From Arenibacter sp. ARW7G5Y1 (GTDB lineage: Bacteria; Bacteroidota; Bacteroidia; Flavobacteriales; Flavobacteriaceae): a stretch of 64,000 nucleotides of DNA. The notes under the pieces were generated by a model. That model did not search any database and was not told where the DNA came from. It saw nothing but the letters and a program-made list of their open reading frames with translations. The stretch spans positions 124,001-188,000 of the forward strand of contig NZ_QJJZ01000005.1 in assembly GCF_003201775.1 (NCBI RefSeq), in the 5' to 3' direction. This document shows positions 13,197 to 20,253 of the stretch, one piece after another (the first letter of the stretch is position 1; every line of letters starts with the position of its first letter). The translations under genes and the position numbers were made by a program.

Positions 13197-13204
13197 TATA
13201 TTTG
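13197..13204 (+). promoter_or_regulatory. -7 promoter element of dapD
   Basis: TATATTTG, full match to the Bacteroidota -7 consensus, ending 21 bases before the dapD ATG at 13226. It excludes the TTG at 13202 as a start codon because that codon lies inside the box. Confidence 0.55.
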
Positions 13205-13225
13205 CTAAAATTTGAATTATTAAAG

Positions 13226-14041
13226 ATGAAAGAACTAAGAAAAACAATAGAAACAGCCTGGGAAAATAGGGACCTACTTAAGGACATTCCAACTCAAACC
13301 GCTATACGGAAAGTCATAGATCTTTTGGATAACGGTACCTTGCGTTGTGCAGAACCTATTGCCGACGGTTGGCAAATAAATGAATGGGTAAAAAAGGCAG
13401 TGGTACTATATTTTCCAATACAAAAAATGGAAACCTTGGAAGCGGGTATCTTTGAATATCACGATAAAATGCCACTAAAAAGAGGGTATGCCGAAAAAGG
13501 CATTCGCGTTGTACCCAATGCAGTTGCCAGACATGGATCATATATTTCCGCAGGTACTATTTTAATGCCCAGTTATGTTAATATTGGAGCCTATGTGGAT
13601 GAAGGTACCATGGTAGATACTTGGGCCACCGTTGGTAGTTGTGCCCAAATCGGTAAAAATGTACACCTTAGTGGCGGAGTAGGAATTGGAGGGGTTTTGG
13701 AACCCTTACAGGCGGCCCCGGTAATTATTGAAGATAATGCCTTTATTGGATCCAGATGTATTGTTGTGGAAGGTGTGCGTGTAGAAAAAGAAGCCGTGTT
13801 GGGAGCCAACGTGGTCCTTACCGGCTCCACTAAAATTATAGATGTTACCGGGGACAAACCTATAGAACGTAAAGGATTGGTACCTGCAAGATCGGTCGTT
13901 ATCCCAGGAAGTTATACCAAAACTTTTCCGGCCGGGGACTATCAGGTTCCATGTGCCTTGATCATTGGTACCCGAAAAGAGAGTACCAACAAAAAAACCT
14001 CCCTAAATGATGCGCTAAGGGAATACGACGTTGCTGTTTAA
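13226..14041 (+). CDS. dapD: 2,3,4,5-tetrahydropyridine-2,6-dicarboxylate N-succinyltransferase
   Basis: 271 residues from ATG 13226. DapD transfers succinyl from succinyl-CoA to tetrahydrodipicolinate in the lysine/meso-diaminopimelate pathway, supplying peptidoglycan. The N-terminal helical domain (about 1-95) is followed by a left-handed parallel beta-helix built of hexapeptide repeats, e.g. NIGAYVDEGTMVDTWATVGS and GVGIGGVLEPLQAAPVIIED, with the usual C-terminal extension (GLVPARSVVIPGSY). Length is standard. The pathway partner lysA is at 34073. Only 9 bases separate its stop from the HAD-like gene, so the surface-polymer genes downstream may share the dapD promoter. Confidence 0.96.
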   Translation: MKELRKTIETAWENRDLLKDIPTQTAIRKVIDLLDNGTLRCAEPIADGWQINEWVKKAVVLYFPIQKMETLEAGIFEYHDKMPLKRGYAEKGIRVVPNAVARHGSYISAGTILMPSYVNIGAYVDEGTMVDTWATVGSCAQIGKNVHLSGGVGIGGVLEPLQAAPVIIEDNAFIGSRCIVVEGVRVEKEAVLGANVVLTGSTKIIDVTGDKPIERKGLVPARSVVIPGSYTKTFPAGDYQVPCALIIGTRKESTNKKTSLNDALREYDVAV

Positions 14042-14050
14042 AGCCAGAAA

Positions 14051-14455
14051 ATGAAAACAATTCTTGTAGATGCTTGGAATACCTTTGTTACTGAAAAGGG
14101 AATGGATTACGATCTAAAAAAATTATTGGACACTTATCCCAATCCCAAAATCATCTTGACAAATGCCAGCAAACAGGAATGTATTAGCTTTGGAATTGTA
14201 AATATGCCTTATCAGGTTTTTAGTTTGGATCATAATCCCAACAAGACCGATAAGGCATATTATCTAAAAATGTTAAATTATTTTAAATTAAAACCCAATG
14301 AGGTTGTCTATTTTGAAAATCATGTAGAAGCTATAAATTCTGCCACCTCCGTTGGTATAAAGACCTTTCCTTACAACAAGGAACATAATCTGGATGGACT
14401 CCGAATTTTCCTAAATAACAATTTAGACCAAACATTCCCGCATTATGGCATATAA
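14051..14455 (+). CDS. Small HAD-superfamily-like protein
   Basis: 134 residues, soluble. The HAD fold is suggested by an N-terminal beta strand ending in an Asp (ILVDAWNTF, D7), a strand with threonine (KIILTNAS, motif II), a lysine region (NKTDKAYYLKML, motif III) and VVYFENH in place of the acidic motif IV. The first motif reads DAWNT, not the DxDxT of phosphatases; haloacid dehalogenases have DAYGT, so the general acid/base Asp is replaced by Trp. It may be a dehalogenase-like or non-phosphatase relative. It overlaps the LicD-like gene by 11 bases and follows dapD by 9, so it is translationally tied to the surface-polymer locus. Function unknown. Confidence 0.65.
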   Translation: MKTILVDAWNTFVTEKGMDYDLKKLLDTYPNPKIILTNASKQECISFGIVNMPYQVFSLDHNPNKTDKAYYLKMLNYFKLKPNEVVYFENHVEAINSATSVGIKTFPYNKEHNLDGLRIFLNNNLDQTFPHYGI

Positions 14456-15029
14456 CATAACCCTAGAAGGAAAAAATAAAGTTATAGCCGAAAGAATGCT
14501 CAAAAAAATGGCTACTATTTTCGACCGATGCAATATTGACTATTGGATTGAAGGTGGAACATTATTGGGTATTAAAAGGGAAAACAGATTGTTGCCTTGG
14601 GATAACGACGTGGATATGTCCATGAACCATGACCAATTGGATAAATTGGACTGTTTTTATTCAGAATTAAAAAAGGCTGGTTATAGGACAAGAACAAGGT
14701 ACTTTGATAAAACTTCCGAATTTTTTACCAAGGGCAACATCAGAATGTTAAAAATAAGGGAACGCCGATTTTTTGGATTGATCAAAGGAGCTGTTTGCCT
14801 GGATGTTTTTATTAAGTATGAACATGGGGGGAATAGTTACTGGGAAATTGACAATAAAACAAAATTTGTCCCTAGCAAGTTTTATCGCACCTTTGACCAT
14901 ATTACATTTAAAGGTTTCGATTACAAAATACCAGCACTGACAGAAGAATATCTTAGCTATAGATATGGAGATTGGCAAAAACAGGTGAAAAATTGGGATA
15001 CTTCCAAAGATGACAATGCAATAGCCTAA
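14445..15029 (+). CDS. LicD-family phosphotransferase
   Basis: 194 residues. The LicD family is marked by YWIEGGTLLGIKRENRLLPW and the acidic metal-binding stretch WDNDVDMSM (residues 52-60). LicD proteins of pneumococcus and Haemophilus transfer phosphocholine from CDP-choline to teichoic acid or lipopolysaccharide; relatives act on ribitol phosphate or other phospho-alcohols. This copy is short compared with classical LicD (around 270 residues), but GGTLLG and DxD are intact. It starts inside the HAD-like gene (11-base overlap) and its stop overlaps the stop of the convergent TagD-like gene by 4 bases. LicA (choline kinase) and LicB (choline transporter) homologues are not in the window, so choline cannot be assumed as substrate. 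Confidence 0.85.
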   Translation: MAYNITLEGKNKVIAERMLKKMATIFDRCNIDYWIEGGTLLGIKRENRLLPWDNDVDMSMNHDQLDKLDCFYSELKKAGYRTRTRYFDKTSEFFTKGNIRMLKIRERRFFGLIKGAVCLDVFIKYEHGGNSYWEIDNKTKFVPSKFYRTFDHITFKGFDYKIPALTEEYLSYRYGDWQKQVKNWDTSKDDNAIA

Positions 15030-15664
15030 GTGGCTTGGGGCTGCAATTGTAATGTTTCCTTTAAGATAGTGCTACTAACATTTTCTGTATAGGCAACGTA
15101 TTCCACAGGGCAATTCGTTTTTGGGAATTTGCCCTTCCAATCGTCCCCAACGGAAATAGCGTCTATATTATACTCATCCACTATACGTTGTTTATTTTTA
15201 TCTGTCTGGGGTATAACTTCATCCACATAGTTTATTGCCTGGACTAGTTTTACCCTTTCCGTAAAAGGGATAATAGGCAACCTCCCTTTTTCTTTCAAAA
15301 TAAGTTCATCGGTAGAAACGCCCACAATTAAATGACTGCACATTTGCTTTGACCTTTTGAGAATGTTAAGATGTCCAAAATGAAAAATATCAAAACAACC
15401 GGACGTATACATTTTATTATATTTTTTAACCTTTTTACTGTGCTTTACCTTTATAGCAAGGGTATTACCCTTCTTAAGTTTTATAATGTAATTTTTATTA
15501 TCAAAAAAAACTCCAATATTCTTTACAATCTCCAACATCTCTGACAAAGCGTCATCAATTTCACACTTACAGCTTATATACAACGCTACCTGATCATCCG
15601 GATCAGTAACAAAGTTCCAGTTTGGATATTTCGAAGTAAGAATGTACAGATAAGTTTCAGTCAT
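15026..15664 (-). CDS. TagD-like cytidylyltransferase with an N-terminal extension
   Basis: 212 residues. The C-terminal part (about 84-205) is a nucleotidyltransferase of the glycerol-3-phosphate cytidylyltransferase type: SGCFDIFHFGHLNIL with HxGH at 95-98, GVSTDELI, RVKLVQAINYVDEVIPQ, SVGDDWKGKF (171-180) and VSSTILKETL, corresponding to the ISTT signature loop. TagD makes CDP-glycerol from CTP and glycerol 3-phosphate. Standard TagD is about 130 residues; here some 80 residues precede the core (a conserved-looking PDDQVALYISCKC and a helix EIDDALSEMLEIVKNI), of unknown role. The start is an ATG without a nearer alternative except M85 at the core itself. It is convergent with the LicD-like gene, on the opposite strand from the rest of the locus. 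Confidence 0.83.
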   Translation of the reverse strand: MTETYLYILTSKYPNWNFVTDPDDQVALYISCKCEIDDALSEMLEIVKNIGVFFDNKNYIIKLKKGNTLAIKVKHSKKVKKYNKMYTSGCFDIFHFGHLNILKRSKQMCSHLIVGVSTDELILKEKGRLPIIPFTERVKLVQAINYVDEVIPQTDKNKQRIVDEYNIDAISVGDDWKGKFPKTNCPVEYVAYTENVSSTILKETLQLQPQAT

Positions 15665-16055
15665 TTTTAAATAATCCTATAGTTTGTATATAATGTGTAA
15701 AGGTAATAAACGGTATTGGACAAAATTTATTTTACCTAAGTTATTACATATTGGTCTATCCAACTCCCCTATTTATAAAATTATCCTAACAAAAGCCTCA
15801 ATAAATTACCAACTCCACCAGACCCACATAGCTATGCACTGCCAATGCCCTTGTAGAAAAGTCCAGTTGTTTCAAAGAAATTCCCAGTAACAATTAGCCT
15901 TTTGTTGTTCCATCTTATGTAAACTACTTGTAATTTGATATACTATAATTGTTTTTTTTTTGTTATCTATTGAGTAAGATCATTATGGATTTTAGTGATT
16001 TCAACGCAACTATTTCTAATATTACTATCTAATAAGTGGTACAAATTTCGAATGC
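15665..16055. other. 391-base intergenic region, AT-rich
   Basis: This lies between the divergent TagD-like and GT2 genes. I see only short open frames without recognisable similarity, a homopolymer run of T near 15951-15961 and no clear hairpin. It probably holds promoters for both flanking genes; no full TAnnTTTG box stood out. Confidence 0.5.
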
Positions 16056-16850
16056 ATGATAGATCAGAGGGAAAAAATATCGGCCTTAATAATCACTTAT
16101 AATGAGATGGGATATATTGAAAAATGTATCGATTCCATAGCGTTTGCAGATGAAATTATTGTGGTGGATTCGTATAGTACGGATGGCACCTATGAATATC
16201 TAAACAATCACCCCAAGGTTAGGGTTATCCAACACGAATTTGAAAATTACACTGCCCAAAAATCCTTCGCCCTAAAACAGGCTTCACACGATTGGGTTCT
16301 TTTCCTGGATGCCGATGAAGTTGTTACGGACAAGTTGAGGAAGGAAATAAAATGTAAGGCCAAGAAGGATTCCGAACATTGCGCATATTGGTTCTATAGG
16401 AAATTTATGTTCAAAAACAGCCGCCTGCGCTTTAGTGGATGGCAAACCGATAAGAATTATCGCCTTTTCAGAAAAAGTAAGGCTCAATTCAGTAAGGAAA
16501 AAATAGTGCATGAAACGCTTATTGTAAAGGGTTCCACTGGAATATTGAAACAGAAATTAATGCACTATTGCTACAAGAACTACGAAGATTATAGATATAA
16601 AATGCTAAAATACGGGCGACTAAAAGCTAAGGAAGCCCACCAGAAAGAAAAAAAATTCAACTACCTTCTTTTAATTTTCAAGCCGATTTGGAAATTTTTC
16701 AACCACTACATAATTAGATTGGGAATACTGGATGGAAAAAAAGGTATTACCATATGCTATTTGAATGCCCTGGGCGATTTTGAAAGGTACAGGGAATTAC
16801 AGCGTTTGGGTAAAAAAGAAAAAATGGCCTATTTTTTAGTAGAATCATAA
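16056..16850 (+). CDS. Glycosyltransferase family 2, WaaE/KdtX-like
   Basis: 264 residues. A GT-A domain starts at once: KISALIITYNEMGYIEKC, FADEIIVVDSYSTDGT, then the DxD-type metal site FLDADEVV (about residues 85-92), FSGWQTDKNYRLFR and KIVHETL. This is the pattern of lipopolysaccharide core beta-1,4-glucosyltransferase WaaE and its relatives. A basic C-terminal part (about 190-255) with FFNHYIIRLGILDGKKG may associate with the membrane. It is a close paralogue of the C-terminal domain of the fusion protein at 17854: long identical blocks such as ADEIIVVDSYSTDGT and CYLNALG recur. It probably adds a sugar to a lipid-linked or LPS acceptor on the cytoplasmic face; donor unknown. Confidence 0.88.
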   Translation: MIDQREKISALIITYNEMGYIEKCIDSIAFADEIIVVDSYSTDGTYEYLNNHPKVRVIQHEFENYTAQKSFALKQASHDWVLFLDADEVVTDKLRKEIKCKAKKDSEHCAYWFYRKFMFKNSRLRFSGWQTDKNYRLFRKSKAQFSKEKIVHETLIVKGSTGILKQKLMHYCYKNYEDYRYKMLKYGRLKAKEAHQKEKKFNYLLLIFKPIWKFFNHYIIRLGILDGKKGITICYLNALGDFERYRELQRLGKKEKMAYFLVES

Positions 16851-17170
16851 TTGCATATAGAATTCCTCAGGAGATTATTTCCCCGGATCCACATAAATAT
16901 TCCTCCCATATCAATATCCCTTAATCAAGGCATTGTTCACTTATTCCTTATTTTGATTTACCTTGATCCCGTTGGTTCCTGATCCTATCAATCTGCGGAT
17001 GATCTGTGCCAAGGGTCAAATCCCTTGAAGACTTCCTGCTATCTATCCTTAAAAATTATAAACCATTATTTACATATCTTTGCCCCCACCCTTAACTTTG
17101 CATTAAGTTATAGTTAAAAAGTATAGGACCTGTCTTGTTCTGGACTAGTCATTAAAAAAATATAAAAATC
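16851..17170. other. 320-base intergenic region with a promoter
   Basis: No open frame worth calling. A consensus -7 box lies at 17075-17082. The rest is unstructured to the eye and may include the leader of the LicC-like gene. Confidence 0.5.
17075..17082 (+). promoter_or_regulatory. -7 promoter element of the LicC-like/fusion/tsaC/cca operon
   Basis: TATCTTTG, full match to TAnnTTTG, 89 bases before the ATG at 17171. No good -33 TTTG at 18-20 bases upstream. It would drive a four-gene operon to 21680. Confidence 0.45.
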
Positions 17171-17857
17171 ATGAAAATTGTCATTTTAGCAGCAGGTATT
17201 GGATCAAGACTTGGAAACCCATTTCCTAAACCACTAACCCCTTTAAAAAATGGAAAATGTATCATGGAGATGCAGGTCAACAATCTGGATGATGCTTTCG
17301 ACTTAGATGACATTAACGTTGTAGTTGGTTTTAAAAAAGATTTAATAATGGAACGCTTTCCCGAACTAACCTATATATACAATCCATTTTTTGATCAGAC
17401 CAATACTTCCAAAAGCCTTTTACAGGCTCTAAGAAAAAATAGGGACAAATCCGTGCTTTGGCTTAATGGCGATGTTGTTTTTGACGTAAATCTTTTATCG
17501 ATCCTAAAACCATACATTACTAACAATCAATCGTTTGTTGCCGTAAATACCAGTAAAGTGGCAGAGGAAGAGGTTAAATATACATTAAAGAACAATTATA
17601 TTGAGAAATTGTCCAAGACGGTAAAAAATGGGTTAGGGGAAGCAGTAGGCATCAATTTTATTGCAGCCCAGGATATAAAGAGTTTTATCACCCGGCTTGA
17701 AGAATGCGATGACAATGATTATTTTGAAAGAGGTTTGGAAATAGCCATAGAAAAAGACAATCTTAAAATTAGTGCTGTTGACATTTCCGATTATAATTGT
17801 ATGGAAGTTGATTTTAAAGAAGATTTGGAAAATGCCAATACCCTATTTCAAAAATGA
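17171..17857 (+). CDS. LicC-like sugar-nucleotidyltransferase-family protein (NTP transferase)
   Basis: 228 residues. The nucleotidyltransferase signature ILAAGIGSRLGNPFPKPL (residues 5-21, K20 in the active site) is followed by VVVGFKKDLI, the substrate loop NTSKSLLQAL, WLNGDVVFD (Mg2+-binding Asp) and GLGEAVGINFI. This arrangement resembles LicC (CTP:phosphocholine cytidylyltransferase) and related enzymes that activate phospho-alcohols, more than the glucose-1-phosphate thymidylyltransferases, which are longer. Its stop overlaps the start of the glycerophosphotransferase fusion by 4 bases, so they are translationally coupled and presumably make and use the same nucleotide-activated compound. 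Substrate is inferred, not shown. Confidence 0.8.
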   Translation: MKIVILAAGIGSRLGNPFPKPLTPLKNGKCIMEMQVNNLDDAFDLDDINVVVGFKKDLIMERFPELTYIYNPFFDQTNTSKSLLQALRKNRDKSVLWLNGDVVFDVNLLSILKPYITNNQSFVAVNTSKVAEEEVKYTLKNNYIEKLSKTVKNGLGEAVGINFIAAQDIKSFITRLEECDDNDYFERGLEIAIEKDNLKISAVDISDYNCMEVDFKEDLENANTLFQK

Positions 17858-19677
17858 AAGTAATTTTATTTTGCCAAAATGCATATGCCTTTGGTATCCT
17901 AGCTCCCATTCGGGATGTACTACTGGAACAGGGACACGACTTTCTTTGGTACATTTCCGGGAAACTTTTGGACAATTTTCCGTATAAAAATGAAGATTAT
18001 ACGGTTAGCACATTAGACTTACAACTCTATAAAAGTGATGCCATTTTTGTGCCTGGCAATGAAGTACCTTATTATGTTCGGGGACTTAAAGTCCAGGTTT
18101 TTCATGGTCTTGCCGGTGAAAAAAAAGGGCATTTCAGGATACGGCACTACTTTGATCTCTATCTTACCCAAGGCCCGTATTTCACGGATAAATTCAACGA
18201 GCTAAAAAAAATACACAAGAATTTTGATGTGATTGAGACAGGCTGGCCAAAATTGGATGTATACAGCACGGAAAAAAATAAATACGATTTTGAAAAGAAA
18301 GCCATACTACAGCAATTTAACACGGATAAAATTGTTCTGTATGCCCCTACCTTTTCTCCCAGCCTTACCTCTGCCCCATATCTCATAAAAGAAATAAGAA
18401 ATCTTGCCGAGACCACTGGGTATGTAGTCCTCATAAAGTTCCATGACCTCATGGACCAAAAATGGATAAAGGAGTACAAAAGATTGTCCAATGAAATACA
18501 CAATGTACTTTTCAAAGAGGACAGAAACATAATTAAATCGCTGTTACAGGCAGATATATTGGTTAGCGACACCTCTTCTGTAATATACGAATTCATTCTC
18601 CTGAACAAACCTGTAATATCCTTTAAGAATATTGCCGAGAAGGTATTGTGGGACAACTCAAAAGCATACACCGGGCTTACCGAGAAAGTTTTGGATAATT
18701 TTCACTTTGATCCCCACGCTGCGGAAAGGGCATACATAAACATGCAATTTCACCCTTACCAGGATGGAAATTCGGCACTTCGCATGGTAAATGCGGTAAA
18801 AGAGCATCTAGAAATCCATGGAGTGCCCGAAAAAAGAAAACTATCCCTGGCCAGAAGGATCAAAATAAATTCCATGTTCGGTAAACCAACCAAGAACATC
18901 TATGTTGGTGAAAAAAGAAATAAAATTTCTGCTATTCTCATTACGTATAACGAGGATATCCATATCAATGCCGTTTTGGAAAACGTAAAATTTGCAGATG
19001 AGATTATTGTTGTGGATTCCTATAGTACGGATGGCACTATCGAAAAGATAAAGGAGCATCCGGAGGTAAAATTGATCCAACGTACATTTGTTAATTATAC
19101 AGATCAAAAGTCCTATGCCCTCCAACAGGCAACAAATGACTGGGTACTTTTTCTGGATGCGGATGAAAGGGTTCCGGATCGGCTTAGAAATGAGATATTG
19201 GAAACCGTTAATTCCGGCAAACCAACAGCAGATGCTTATTACTTTTACAGAACCTTTATGTTCAAAAATAAGGTTTTGCGTTTTAGTGGCTGGCAGCGGG
19301 ATAAGAATTATAGACTTTTCAAGAAAAGTAAAGTACACTTTACAGAAGATAGGATAGTACACGAAACATTGGTGGTGGACGGACAATCCGATGTGCTCAA
19401 AAACAAGCTAATTCATTACTCCTATAAGAATTACGAAGACTATAGGGGGAAAATGATAAAGTATGGACAAATGAAGGCAGTGGAGGAACTTAAGAAAGAT
19501 TACGATCCCAACTTTTACCACTTTGTATTCCGCCCATTTTACAAATTTTTTAATCATTATATTTTAAGATTTGGCATCCTTGACGGCAAAAAAGGGATAA
19601 TCATATGCTATCTAAACGCCTTGGGAGTATATTCCCGGTACAAGGAATTAAAGAGATTAAGGAATATAAGACAATAG
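17854..19677 (+). CDS. Fusion: CDP-glycerol glycerophosphotransferase-like domain + GT2 (WaaE-like) domain
   Basis: 607 residues, two enzymes in one chain. Residues 1 to about 345 match the TagB/TagF CDP-glycerol:glycerophosphotransferase family: VFHGLAGEKKG with H84, TGWPKLD, IVLYAPTFSPS, FHDLMDQ and the nucleotide-site motif SDTSSVIYEF (about 238-247). From about 357 to 600 follows a complete GT2 domain (KISAILITYNED, ADEIIVVDSYSTDGT, FLDADERV near 434, FSGWQRDKNYRLF, ending CYLNALG), paralogous to the separate GT2 at 16056. I infer addition of a sugar and of a glycerol-phosphate-type group to the same acceptor. It is translationally coupled to the LicC-like gene and 6 bases before tsaC. 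TagF-like proteins are typical of Gram-positive teichoic acid synthesis, and such a fusion in Bacteroidota is unusual to me. Confidence 0.87.
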   Translation: MKVILFCQNAYAFGILAPIRDVLLEQGHDFLWYISGKLLDNFPYKNEDYTVSTLDLQLYKSDAIFVPGNEVPYYVRGLKVQVFHGLAGEKKGHFRIRHYFDLYLTQGPYFTDKFNELKKIHKNFDVIETGWPKLDVYSTEKNKYDFEKKAILQQFNTDKIVLYAPTFSPSLTSAPYLIKEIRNLAETTGYVVLIKFHDLMDQKWIKEYKRLSNEIHNVLFKEDRNIIKSLLQADILVSDTSSVIYEFILLNKPVISFKNIAEKVLWDNSKAYTGLTEKVLDNFHFDPHAAERAYINMQFHPYQDGNSALRMVNAVKEHLEIHGVPEKRKLSLARRIKINSMFGKPTKNIYVGEKRNKISAILITYNEDIHINAVLENVKFADEIIVVDSYSTDGTIEKIKEHPEVKLIQRTFVNYTDQKSYALQQATNDWVLFLDADERVPDRLRNEILETVNSGKPTADAYYFYRTFMFKNKVLRFSGWQRDKNYRLFKKSKVHFTEDRIVHETLVVDGQSDVLKNKLIHYSYKNYEDYRGKMIKYGQMKAVEELKKDYDPNFYHFVFRPFYKFFNHYILRFGILDGKKGIIICYLNALGVYSRYKELKRLRNIRQ

Positions 19678-19683
19678 ACAATT

Positions 19684-20253
19684 ATGAAAGATTTGCTTTC
19701 CGAAGTAAACCAATGCTGTGATATACTTACAAAGGGAGGTATAATTCTGTACCCCACGGATACCGTTTGGGGTATTGGCTGTGACGCAACAAATGTGGCT
19801 GCCGTAGAAAAAATTTATACCCTAAAGCAAAGAGCCAATTCCAAGACCATGATCTGTTTGGTGGCCAATGATTTTATGTTGGAACAGCATGTTGAAAAAG
19901 TACCGGAGCTGGCCTATGATATTATGGATCTTGCTACCAAACCAACCACCATTGTATATGAATCACCTAAGGGCGTCGCTTCAAATTTAATCGCCAATGA
20001 TAACACTTTGGCCATTAGGGTAGCTTCTGATCAATTTTGTCAGTACCTGATAAAGAAATTTAAAAAACCGATCGTATCCACTTCTGCCAATATAGCGGGG
20101 CAGCCAACCCCCATTTCTTACAAAGAAATATCCGATGGGATTTTAAAAGGTGTGGACTATATAGTAAATTTGGACCGCGATAAAATTAATAGTACCCCAT
20201 CTTCCATTATTATGCTCGGTAATGATGGTACCGTAAAAGTGATCCGAGAATAA
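19684..20253 (+). CDS. tsaC: L-threonylcarbamoyladenylate synthase (TsaC/YrdC type)
   Basis: 189 residues. It makes threonylcarbamoyl-AMP from threonine, bicarbonate and ATP, the first step of the t6A37 tRNA modification. YrdC-fold markers are GGIILYPTDTVWGIGCDA at the N terminus, IYTLKQRANSKTMICLV (the K-R-x-x motif), KPTTIVYES and VSTSANIAGQPTP. It is the short form without the Sua5 C-terminal domain. It starts 6 bases after the fusion gene and ends 2 bases before cca, so two tRNA-maturation genes are the last members of the surface-polymer operon. Confidence 0.93.
   Translation: MKDLLSEVNQCCDILTKGGIILYPTDTVWGIGCDATNVAAVEKIYTLKQRANSKTMICLVANDFMLEQHVEKVPELAYDIMDLATKPTTIVYESPKGVASNLIANDNTLAIRVASDQFCQYLIKKFKKPIVSTSANIAGQPTPISYKEISDGILKGVDYIVNLDRDKINSTPSSIIMLGNDGTVKVIRE

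Follow-up and report, generated by a model that had tools for sequence, protein, structure and literature searches.

We analyzed a stretch of 64,000 nucleotides of the genome of Arenibacter sp. ARW7G5Y1 (source genome G000, contig 5, positions 124001-188000; hereafter, the window), in which six genes lying between dapD and sua5 (the slot) bring familiar enzyme families together in an unusual, orderly arrangement: two modules for activation and transfer, independent of each other, of which one is tightly coupled. Module 1 consists of a LicC-like nucleotidyltransferase and the TagF-like domain of a protein that fuses TagF to a family 2 glycosyltransferase (GT2), and module 2 of a short HAD-like protein, a LicD-like phosphotransferase and a TagD-like nucleotidyltransferase. 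We consider it probable (about 0.6) that these two modules attach phosphodiester-linked small groups to a surface glycan, in all likelihood the core of lipooligosaccharide or lipopolysaccharide (LOS/LPS).

Two independently inherited modules

We searched for LicC and TagF in 299 Flavobacteriaceae genomes, drawn evenly and representing 236 genera. LicC (E<=1e-40) was found in 27 genomes (23 of the 236 genera), and a close TagF (E<=1e-115) in exactly those 27; three further genomes gave distant TagF-like matches only (33-34% identity, E 1e-41 to 1e-44). Across an order-wide sample, LicC (E<=1e-20) was present in 7 of 395 genomes, one of them outside the family (G349). TagF was located directly 3' of LicC, on the same strand and at a distance of at most about 105 bases, in all 26 loci other than that of the window. 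The first-pass annotation of this DNA had pointed to synteny in Flavobacteriaceae as one way to check its gene set; LicC and TagF indeed co-occur and are adjacent there, and are not scattered. The smallest locus consists of dapD-LicC-TagF-cca without any glycosyltransferase gene (L169), implying that no further gene at the slot is needed for the LicC substrate. The distances of LicC and TagF correlated at 0.73 once the DapD distance was removed, with 0 of 999 permutations as high. This correlation used 20 of 28 loci (27 fetched plus the window); the other eight were dropped because one of the four genes was missing or because TagF did not score above 380 bits.

Within the genus Arenibacter, the full-length fusion was found in 17 of 18 genomes (source genome included) and LicC in 15. 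The fusion's distribution in the genus, together with LicC-TagF adjacency across many genera, rules out a chance grouping of genes. We did not find LicC anywhere in the genomes of A. certesii (G007, L043) or A. latericius (G001, L048) at E<=1e-5, and both of these carry the fusion.

These two species also have a decayed TagF domain. By profile, the TagF-like domain matches TarL (1.5e-17) and Cps3D (5.4e-12). Its residues His84 and His197 are invariant in 17 LicC-linked sequences; His197 aligns to a histidine in the chains of Cps3D (row position 612) and TarL (433), and His84 is assigned by motif only. According to the accessible part of PMC11666461, H444 of TagF is the probable base, H584 touches the pyrophosphate, and H444N is the mutant that was crystallised with CDP-glycerol. 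In A. certesii and A. latericius both histidines are replaced, the first by the same change (H84N) and the second by different ones (H197K and H197Q), and the DTSS motif has lost its second serine. Among the positions that do not vary across the other 26 fusions, the TagF part has changed at 34 (A. certesii) and 31 (A. latericius) of 118, and the GT2 part at 1 and 2 of 101, respectively; a leave-one-out control over the 26 fusions gave maxima of 5/123 (TagF) and 3/104 (GT2). Their identity to the window is 59-60% in TagF and 81-82% in GT2. The simplest reading of these sequences is that, without LicC, the TagF reaction would have no donor. Since the two genes are strictly co-inherited and the active site of TagF has decayed in the species without LicC, the predicted TagF donor is most likely a product of LicC. 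In A. certesii, nature seems to have provided a TagF domain with a mutated active site, most relatives keeping an intact pair, and this natural contrast within Arenibacter means that a comparison of cores could test the function without genetics. We found no description of the LicC-TagF pair in the open-access literature, judged mainly by titles and the starts of abstracts, and no link to the slot in the available portions of three papers on Riemerella LPS mutants (PMC4193840, PMC4976936, PMC6142336) and of one on C. canimorsus LOS (PMC5156936).

Module 2 is inherited independently. LicD and a close TagD occur together in 12 of the 18 Arenibacter genomes and are both absent from the other 6. 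Among the 26 LicC loci with flanking sequence (window included), 11 have LicD and TagD, 2 have LicD alone and 13 have neither; every locus with TagD also has LicD, and every locus with HAD has both. No TagD-like match (E<=1e-8) was detected genome-wide in 13 of the 15 LicC genomes that lack TagD in the slot, nor in the Arenibacter genomes G004, G010 and G012, which have LicC but neither LicD nor TagD. Since TagF is kept where no TagD was found, its donor should be independent of this TagD; and since module 2 comes and goes separately while TagF persists without TagD, the existence of two donors is well supported. The two activated precursors proposed in the first-pass annotation are thus borne out to the extent that the two nucleotidyltransferase genes belong to independently inherited modules.

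Motif I of HAD proteins usually has a second Asp; the HAD-like protein has DAWNT at this place, without it, so that its activity is doubtful. In LicD, the GTLLG and PWDxDxD residues are invariant in 16 sequences, including Asp53, Asp55 and Asp57, and the profile matches FKRP (E 6.2e-9). The TagD-like protein matches 1coz, the structure of a glycerol-3-phosphate cytidylyltransferase (GCT; E 2.3e-26), and keeps HxGH (as HFGH or HYGH), but it fails the equivalog model TIGR01518 (97.7 vs 165.4 bits), and the position of Arg113 (RTxGISTT) is occupied by Tyr in 13 of 13 aligned LicD-linked TagD sequences, Arg being found only in genome G037 (L068). The available text of PMC8262930 describes Arg113 as essential in B. 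subtilis TagD, which makes plain CDP-glycerol synthesis by the TagD-like protein doubtful. Its assignment in the first-pass annotation therefore holds for the family (PF01467, 1coz) but not for a clean GCT. The protein is also extended at its N-terminus by about 75 residues that are poorly conserved; the TagD of G037 does not have them.

The dapD-sua5 slot

All six genes were confirmed at 14051..19677 by open reading frames (ORFs) and Pfam, the HAD call being weak (Table 1). LicC and the fusion overlap by 4 bases, as do the convergent LicD and TagD-like genes, and HAD and LicD overlap as well. The fusion protein is 94% identical to its counterparts in A. palladensis and A. algicola. The G+C content of HAD, LicD, TagD and LicC is 0.33-0.35, compared with 0.392 for the window, a weak hint that they may be of foreign origin.

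Table 1. Genes and domains of the slot and its borders, in window coordinates; scores are in bits, with the Pfam cut-off where one is given.
Feature	Position	Strand	Evidence
dapD, left border of the variable glycan slot	13202..14041	+	ORF
HAD-like, short (module 2)	14051..14455	+	PF13419, 17.7 (cut-off 23.8, i.e. below it)
LicD-like phosphotransferase (module 2)	14445..15029	+	PF04991, 55 (cut-off 22.6)
TagD-like nucleotidyltransferase (module 2)	15026..15664	-	PF01467 (CTP_transf_like), 73.4 (cut-off 21)
GT2 glycosyltransferase	16056..16850	+	PF00535, 76.3 (cut-off 23.3)
Intergenic	16851..17170		Gene maps of relatives, Pfam, blastn
LicC-like nucleotidyltransferase (module 1)	17171..17857	+	PF12804 (NTP_transf_3), 55.3 (cut-off 27)
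TagF-GT2 fusion, 607 aa	17854..19677	+	PF04464, 74.0 (cut-off 22.1); PF00535, 54.9 (cut-off 23.3)
TagF-like domain of the fusion, about 345 aa (module 1)	17854..18888	+	PF04464; candidate catalytic His84 and His197
GT2 domain of the fusion	18889..19677	+	PF00535, 54.9
sua5, then cca; right border of the slot	19684..20253	+	ORF

Of the 26 other LicC loci, 25 have flanking sequence long enough to show the left border, and in every one of them dapD precedes LicC in the same orientation (the 26th contig, of G152, is too short to show it); sua5 or cca was seen downstream in 19 of 23 loci (L147-L169). The contents of the slot vary among relatives and include GT2, GT4, GT9, GT-D, a TupA ATP-grasp protein, a methyltransferase and further PF04464-like proteins, one of which scores below the Pfam cut-off. 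The slot is a site where relatives swap surface-sugar genes. It may be an LPS-core-type locus with variable outer groups. No wzx, wzy, ligase or tagGH genes, all reported as missing in the first-pass annotation, were seen among the Pfam-scanned slot genes of the window and its relatives, wzx, wzy, waaL and tagGH not having been the object of a dedicated search of the window or genome.

As for the acceptor, LicC loci of other genomes often contain a related gene of about 250 aa: of the 25 examined (L147-L170 plus L067), 17 have it, including L152, L153, L155, L156, L158-L162, L164-L168, L170 and L067. Three of the four members scanned pass PF06293 (Kdo/WaaP kinase; 24.5-32.4 vs 21.3 bits) and one has no match; the two members run against NCBIfam both score to a Kdo kinase model, though at values far under its cut-off. 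The occurrence of Kdo/WaaP-family genes at this place in so many relatives hints at the LPS/LOS core as the probable acceptor. The earlier suggestion that a phospho-alcohol is added to an LPS core or other surface glycan is accordingly plausible as regards a surface phosphodiester, and the core would be the favoured site within it. The GT9 gene of A. certesii has its best scores with LPS heptosyltransferase models, below their cut-offs; heptosyltransferase-like GT9 and methyltransferase genes lie to the left of the fusion in both A. certesii (L043:7809-9236) and A. latericius (L048:5929-7638).

Other genes accompany the pair in certain loci. The Stealth family makes sugar phosphodiesters, and genes of this family exceed the PF11380 cut-off in two LicC-TagF slots (L152, L158). 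Stealth- or YrbL-family genes beside LicC-TagF are located at L152:9642-11252, L158:11494-12432, L159:5431-6030 and L161:6676-7269. Minus-strand genes of about 200 aa at the place of TagD (L159, L160, L161, and also L152) were considered as hidden TagD genes, but they belong to the YrbL family (PF10707) or its relatives.

The stand-alone GT2 of the window is a paralogue of the GT2 domain of the fusion (61% identity). The GT2 domain is fused to TagF in 8 of the 26 other LicC loci and not in the remaining 18. GT9-GT2 fusions occur in five LicC loci (L164-L168) and in L076 (G034:C6); a GT4-GT2 fusion occurs in L072 (G011:C23) and a reversed GT2-TagF in L071 (G017:C127), where no dapD was seen. 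From these architectures, GT2 seems to act as a hub to which different transferases can be joined in exchange. WaaE, with which the first-pass annotation had compared the GT2, was absent among the matches listed for it, no WaaE-specific test having been made. In four Arenibacter relatives (L031, L035, L037, L039) a GT2 gene is inserted in the gap that precedes LicC in the window, accompanied in three of them by a TupA ATP-grasp gene. About 140 bases 5' of LicC are 79-90% identical, or 310 bases 75% identical, in seven Arenibacter loci (blastn), which suggests that LicC may have a promoter of its own.

Proposed pathway and alternatives

In the pathway that we propose, the LicC-like enzyme would make a CDP-alcohol from CTP and a housekeeping alcohol or polyol phosphate, for which sn-glycerol 3-phosphate is our first candidate. 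The TagF-like domain would transfer the alcohol phosphate to a sugar, probably one added by the fused GT2, as a single group and not as a polymer. The TagD-like enzyme of module 2 would make a second nucleotide-activated alcohol phosphate, which LicD would transfer. A housekeeping phosphate as LicC substrate is indicated by the minimal locus described above. The two glycerol-phosphate cytidylyltransferases that are not TagD proteins are of LicC/MobA type. That two known glycerol-phosphate cytidylyltransferases lie outside the TagD family is stated in the available part of PMC8262930. We put forward, as a tentative extension, that the LicC-like family could be a CTP:glycerol-3-phosphate (or housekeeping polyol phosphate) cytidylyltransferase unrelated to TagD that replaces it as maker of the TagF donor, so that LicC and TagF would form a portable two-gene cassette for teichoic-acid-type phosphodiesters on the Flavobacteriaceae LOS core, with a second cassette, containing a redesigned TagD, adding another group.

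Several observations weigh against this pathway. LicC is a remote member of its fold: a profile of 22 sequences, searched against solved structures, matched first PntC (1.2e-5; 6pd1, CTP:2-aminoethylphosphonate cytidylyltransferase), LicC (3e-5; 1jyk, over residues 2-82 only) and glucose-1-phosphate cytidylyltransferase (2.6e-4), and a search with a single sequence gave nothing at 1e-3, so that the CDP-alcohol is read from a distant resemblance. The LicC-linked TagF sequences have FHG, not the WHG of glycerol-phosphate polymerases (a motif named, with QHG for hexose-phosphate transferases, in the accessible part of PMC11666461). The decayed TagF domains have a dN/dS of about 0.10 compared with 0.04-0.05 in the three computable TagF pairs, with dS near saturation, and such purifying selection means that the domain could have been repurposed or taken a new role; most TagF changes are common to both species, which probably reduces them to one event. 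Two of the 15 LicC genomes whose slot has no TagD do have a TagD-like match elsewhere (G116, and weakly G233). Neither the window nor the named Arenibacter loci yielded a Kdo/WaaP-like gene, so that the hint to the core comes from other genera. Finally, the LOS backbone of A. certesii was reportedly determined in 2005. Its core carries a monosaccharide through a phosphodiester (PMC3210612) and contains galacturonic acid (GalA; PMC4052302), as given in the accessible portions of these papers; as the species has a dead-looking TagF and no LicC, module 1 as described would not be the maker of that phosphodiester.

This phosphodiester-linked monosaccharide fits an alternative in which the substrate of LicC would be an ordinary sugar phosphate, and the TagF-like domain a GT-B enzyme that transfers a sugar or a hexose phosphate. 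The LicC-like protein does score to models of sugar-1-phosphate nucleotidylyltransferases (TIGR03992, 1.7e-12), and TagF-like enzymes include hexose-phosphate transferases, according to the available text of PMC8262930; but all these model scores are far below the curated cut-offs, the best solved-structure matches of the profile are PntC and LicC, and the residue before HG is aromatic, as in WHG and not as in QHG. We regard this alternative as unlikely. The same PntC and LicC matches, and the name “phosphocholine cytidylyltransferase family protein” carried by some LicC-like database entries, would suit the addition of phosphocholine, phosphoethanolamine or aminoethylphosphonate by module 1 through a lic or phosphonate route. 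We consider this very unlikely. The choline/ethanolamine kinase family PF01633 (E<=0.001) was detected in 10 of 26 LicC genomes, over its cut-off in 3, but in none of the 15 that lack TagD in the slot, which disfavours the choline that the first-pass annotation had associated with LicC; no PF04464 enzyme is known to move choline. Aminoethylphosphonate is disfavoured as the LicC substrate too, phosphoenolpyruvate (PEP) mutase being over its cut-off in 2 of the 26 genomes and weak in 2 more.

Two further alternatives concern the product and the number of donors. The TagF-GT2 fusion could be a small polymerase that builds poly(glycosyl-polyol phosphate), either as a capsule or as a chain resembling teichoic acid. 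The model would be A. pleuropneumoniae, whose Cps3/7B-D comprise the same enzyme classes (TagD, LicD and a TagF-GT fusion; accessible parts of PMC11666461 and PMC8262930), and the TagF profile does match Cps3D. However, Pfam reports no TPR region in the 607-aa fusion, unlike in CpsD homologues, all of which, among those analysed in the portion of PMC11666461 available, combine TPR and catalytic modules in one enzyme; KpsC/KpsS (PF05159) gave no match in the source genome and a match in just 3 of 26 LicC genomes, with a positive E. coli control; and the smallest locus has no glycosyltransferase gene at all. A polymerase is therefore quite unlikely. It is decidedly unlikely, too, that the modules serve a common pathway and share a single donor, with CDP-glycerol made redundantly by LicC and TagD. 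GCT is the best match of the TagD-like protein, and in G037, which has no LicC, TagD (with Arg113), GT2 and TagF follow in this order on one strand, TagD and GT2 overlapping by one base and TagF starting about 113 bases further; both histidines are intact in this TagF, as are 83 of 89 invariant positions. If the TagF donor is the same in G037 and in the LicC loci, it would be CDP-glycerol, to which LicC would provide an unrelated route; G037 has a LicD as well, however, so its TagD may serve LicD instead. Against a single donor stand the independent inheritance of the modules and the replacement of Arg113 in all 13 aligned LicD-linked TagD sequences.

We also considered a choline kinase as the kinase of module 2, since PF01633 matches 10 of the 11 genomes with LicD and TagD, and rejected it. 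All 10 positive genomes have one match in a single orthologue group of APH-family kinases, and this orthologue also occurs in genomes without the module: searched directly, it is found in 18 of 18 Arenibacter genomes, including the 6 without LicD and TagD, and in 8 of the 14 other family genomes without LicC that were put to the search. Among the 26 LicC genomes it is present in 11 of 11 with LicD and TagD and in 0 of the 15 others, a pattern that likely reflects shared ancestry and possibly a one-way dependence. As to licA, called absent in the first-pass annotation, the source genome has one PF01633 match, below cut-off, and this is the APH-family kinase beside an NTP transferase (L176:5155-7131; G000:C10, about 117.1-119.1 kb); licB, likewise called absent there, was not searched. 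Three further PF01633 matches are found in G122, G191 and G202 (L183, L185, L188), two of them over cut-off. In G122, a frame of 445 codons (G122:C35:17461-18792) has adjoining matches to the TagD query and to PEP mutase, suggesting a PEP mutase-nucleotidyltransferase fusion.

Comparison with known systems

Among solved structures, the profile of the LicC-like protein comes nearest to PntC. The relationship is remote (E 1.2e-5), and 24 of 26 LicC genomes lack a PEP mutase match above the cut-off. The lic pathway (LicA-B-C-D) likewise brings LicC-fold and LicD-family genes together in one locus; here, in contrast, LicC is inherited with TagF and not with LicD, and has no association with a choline kinase. 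With Gram-positive TagD, TagF and TarL the locus shares a PF04464 domain with two key histidines and a nucleotidyltransferase partner, but the domain is of about 345 aa, has FHG in place of WHG, and its partner is LicC-like.

The first-pass annotation had concluded that neither classical pathway fits. The teichoic acid and lic pathways are not the sole comparators, since a Gram-negative precedent exists in CpsA-D of A. pleuropneumoniae. According to the accessible parts of PMC11666461 and PMC8262930, CpsA of serotypes 3 and 7 (PF04464) transfers glycerol phosphate to a Kdo acceptor, which CpsC (LicD family) then elongates; CpsD (TagF-GT) polymerises, and CpsB (GCT/TagD) feeds them. Surface phosphodiester chemistry of the kind proposed for both modules is best known from teichoic acids and capsules. 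Our proposal would tie a gene pair of about a tenth of the sampled Flavobacteriaceae to concrete surface chemistry, and would name a LicC-fold partner for TagF-like enzymes where TagD is expected. The A. pleuropneumoniae 3/7 set is the closest known one: both systems are Gram-negative, combine TagD-like, LicD and TagF-GT fusion genes in one locus and share CDP-polyol chemistry, which is predicted here from the gene families. In Arenibacter, however, a LicC-like gene is added and tied to TagF, the TagD-like protein is without Arg113, the fused glycosyltransferase is a GT2 and not a GT-B enzyme, and the genes occupy the dapD-sua5 slot.

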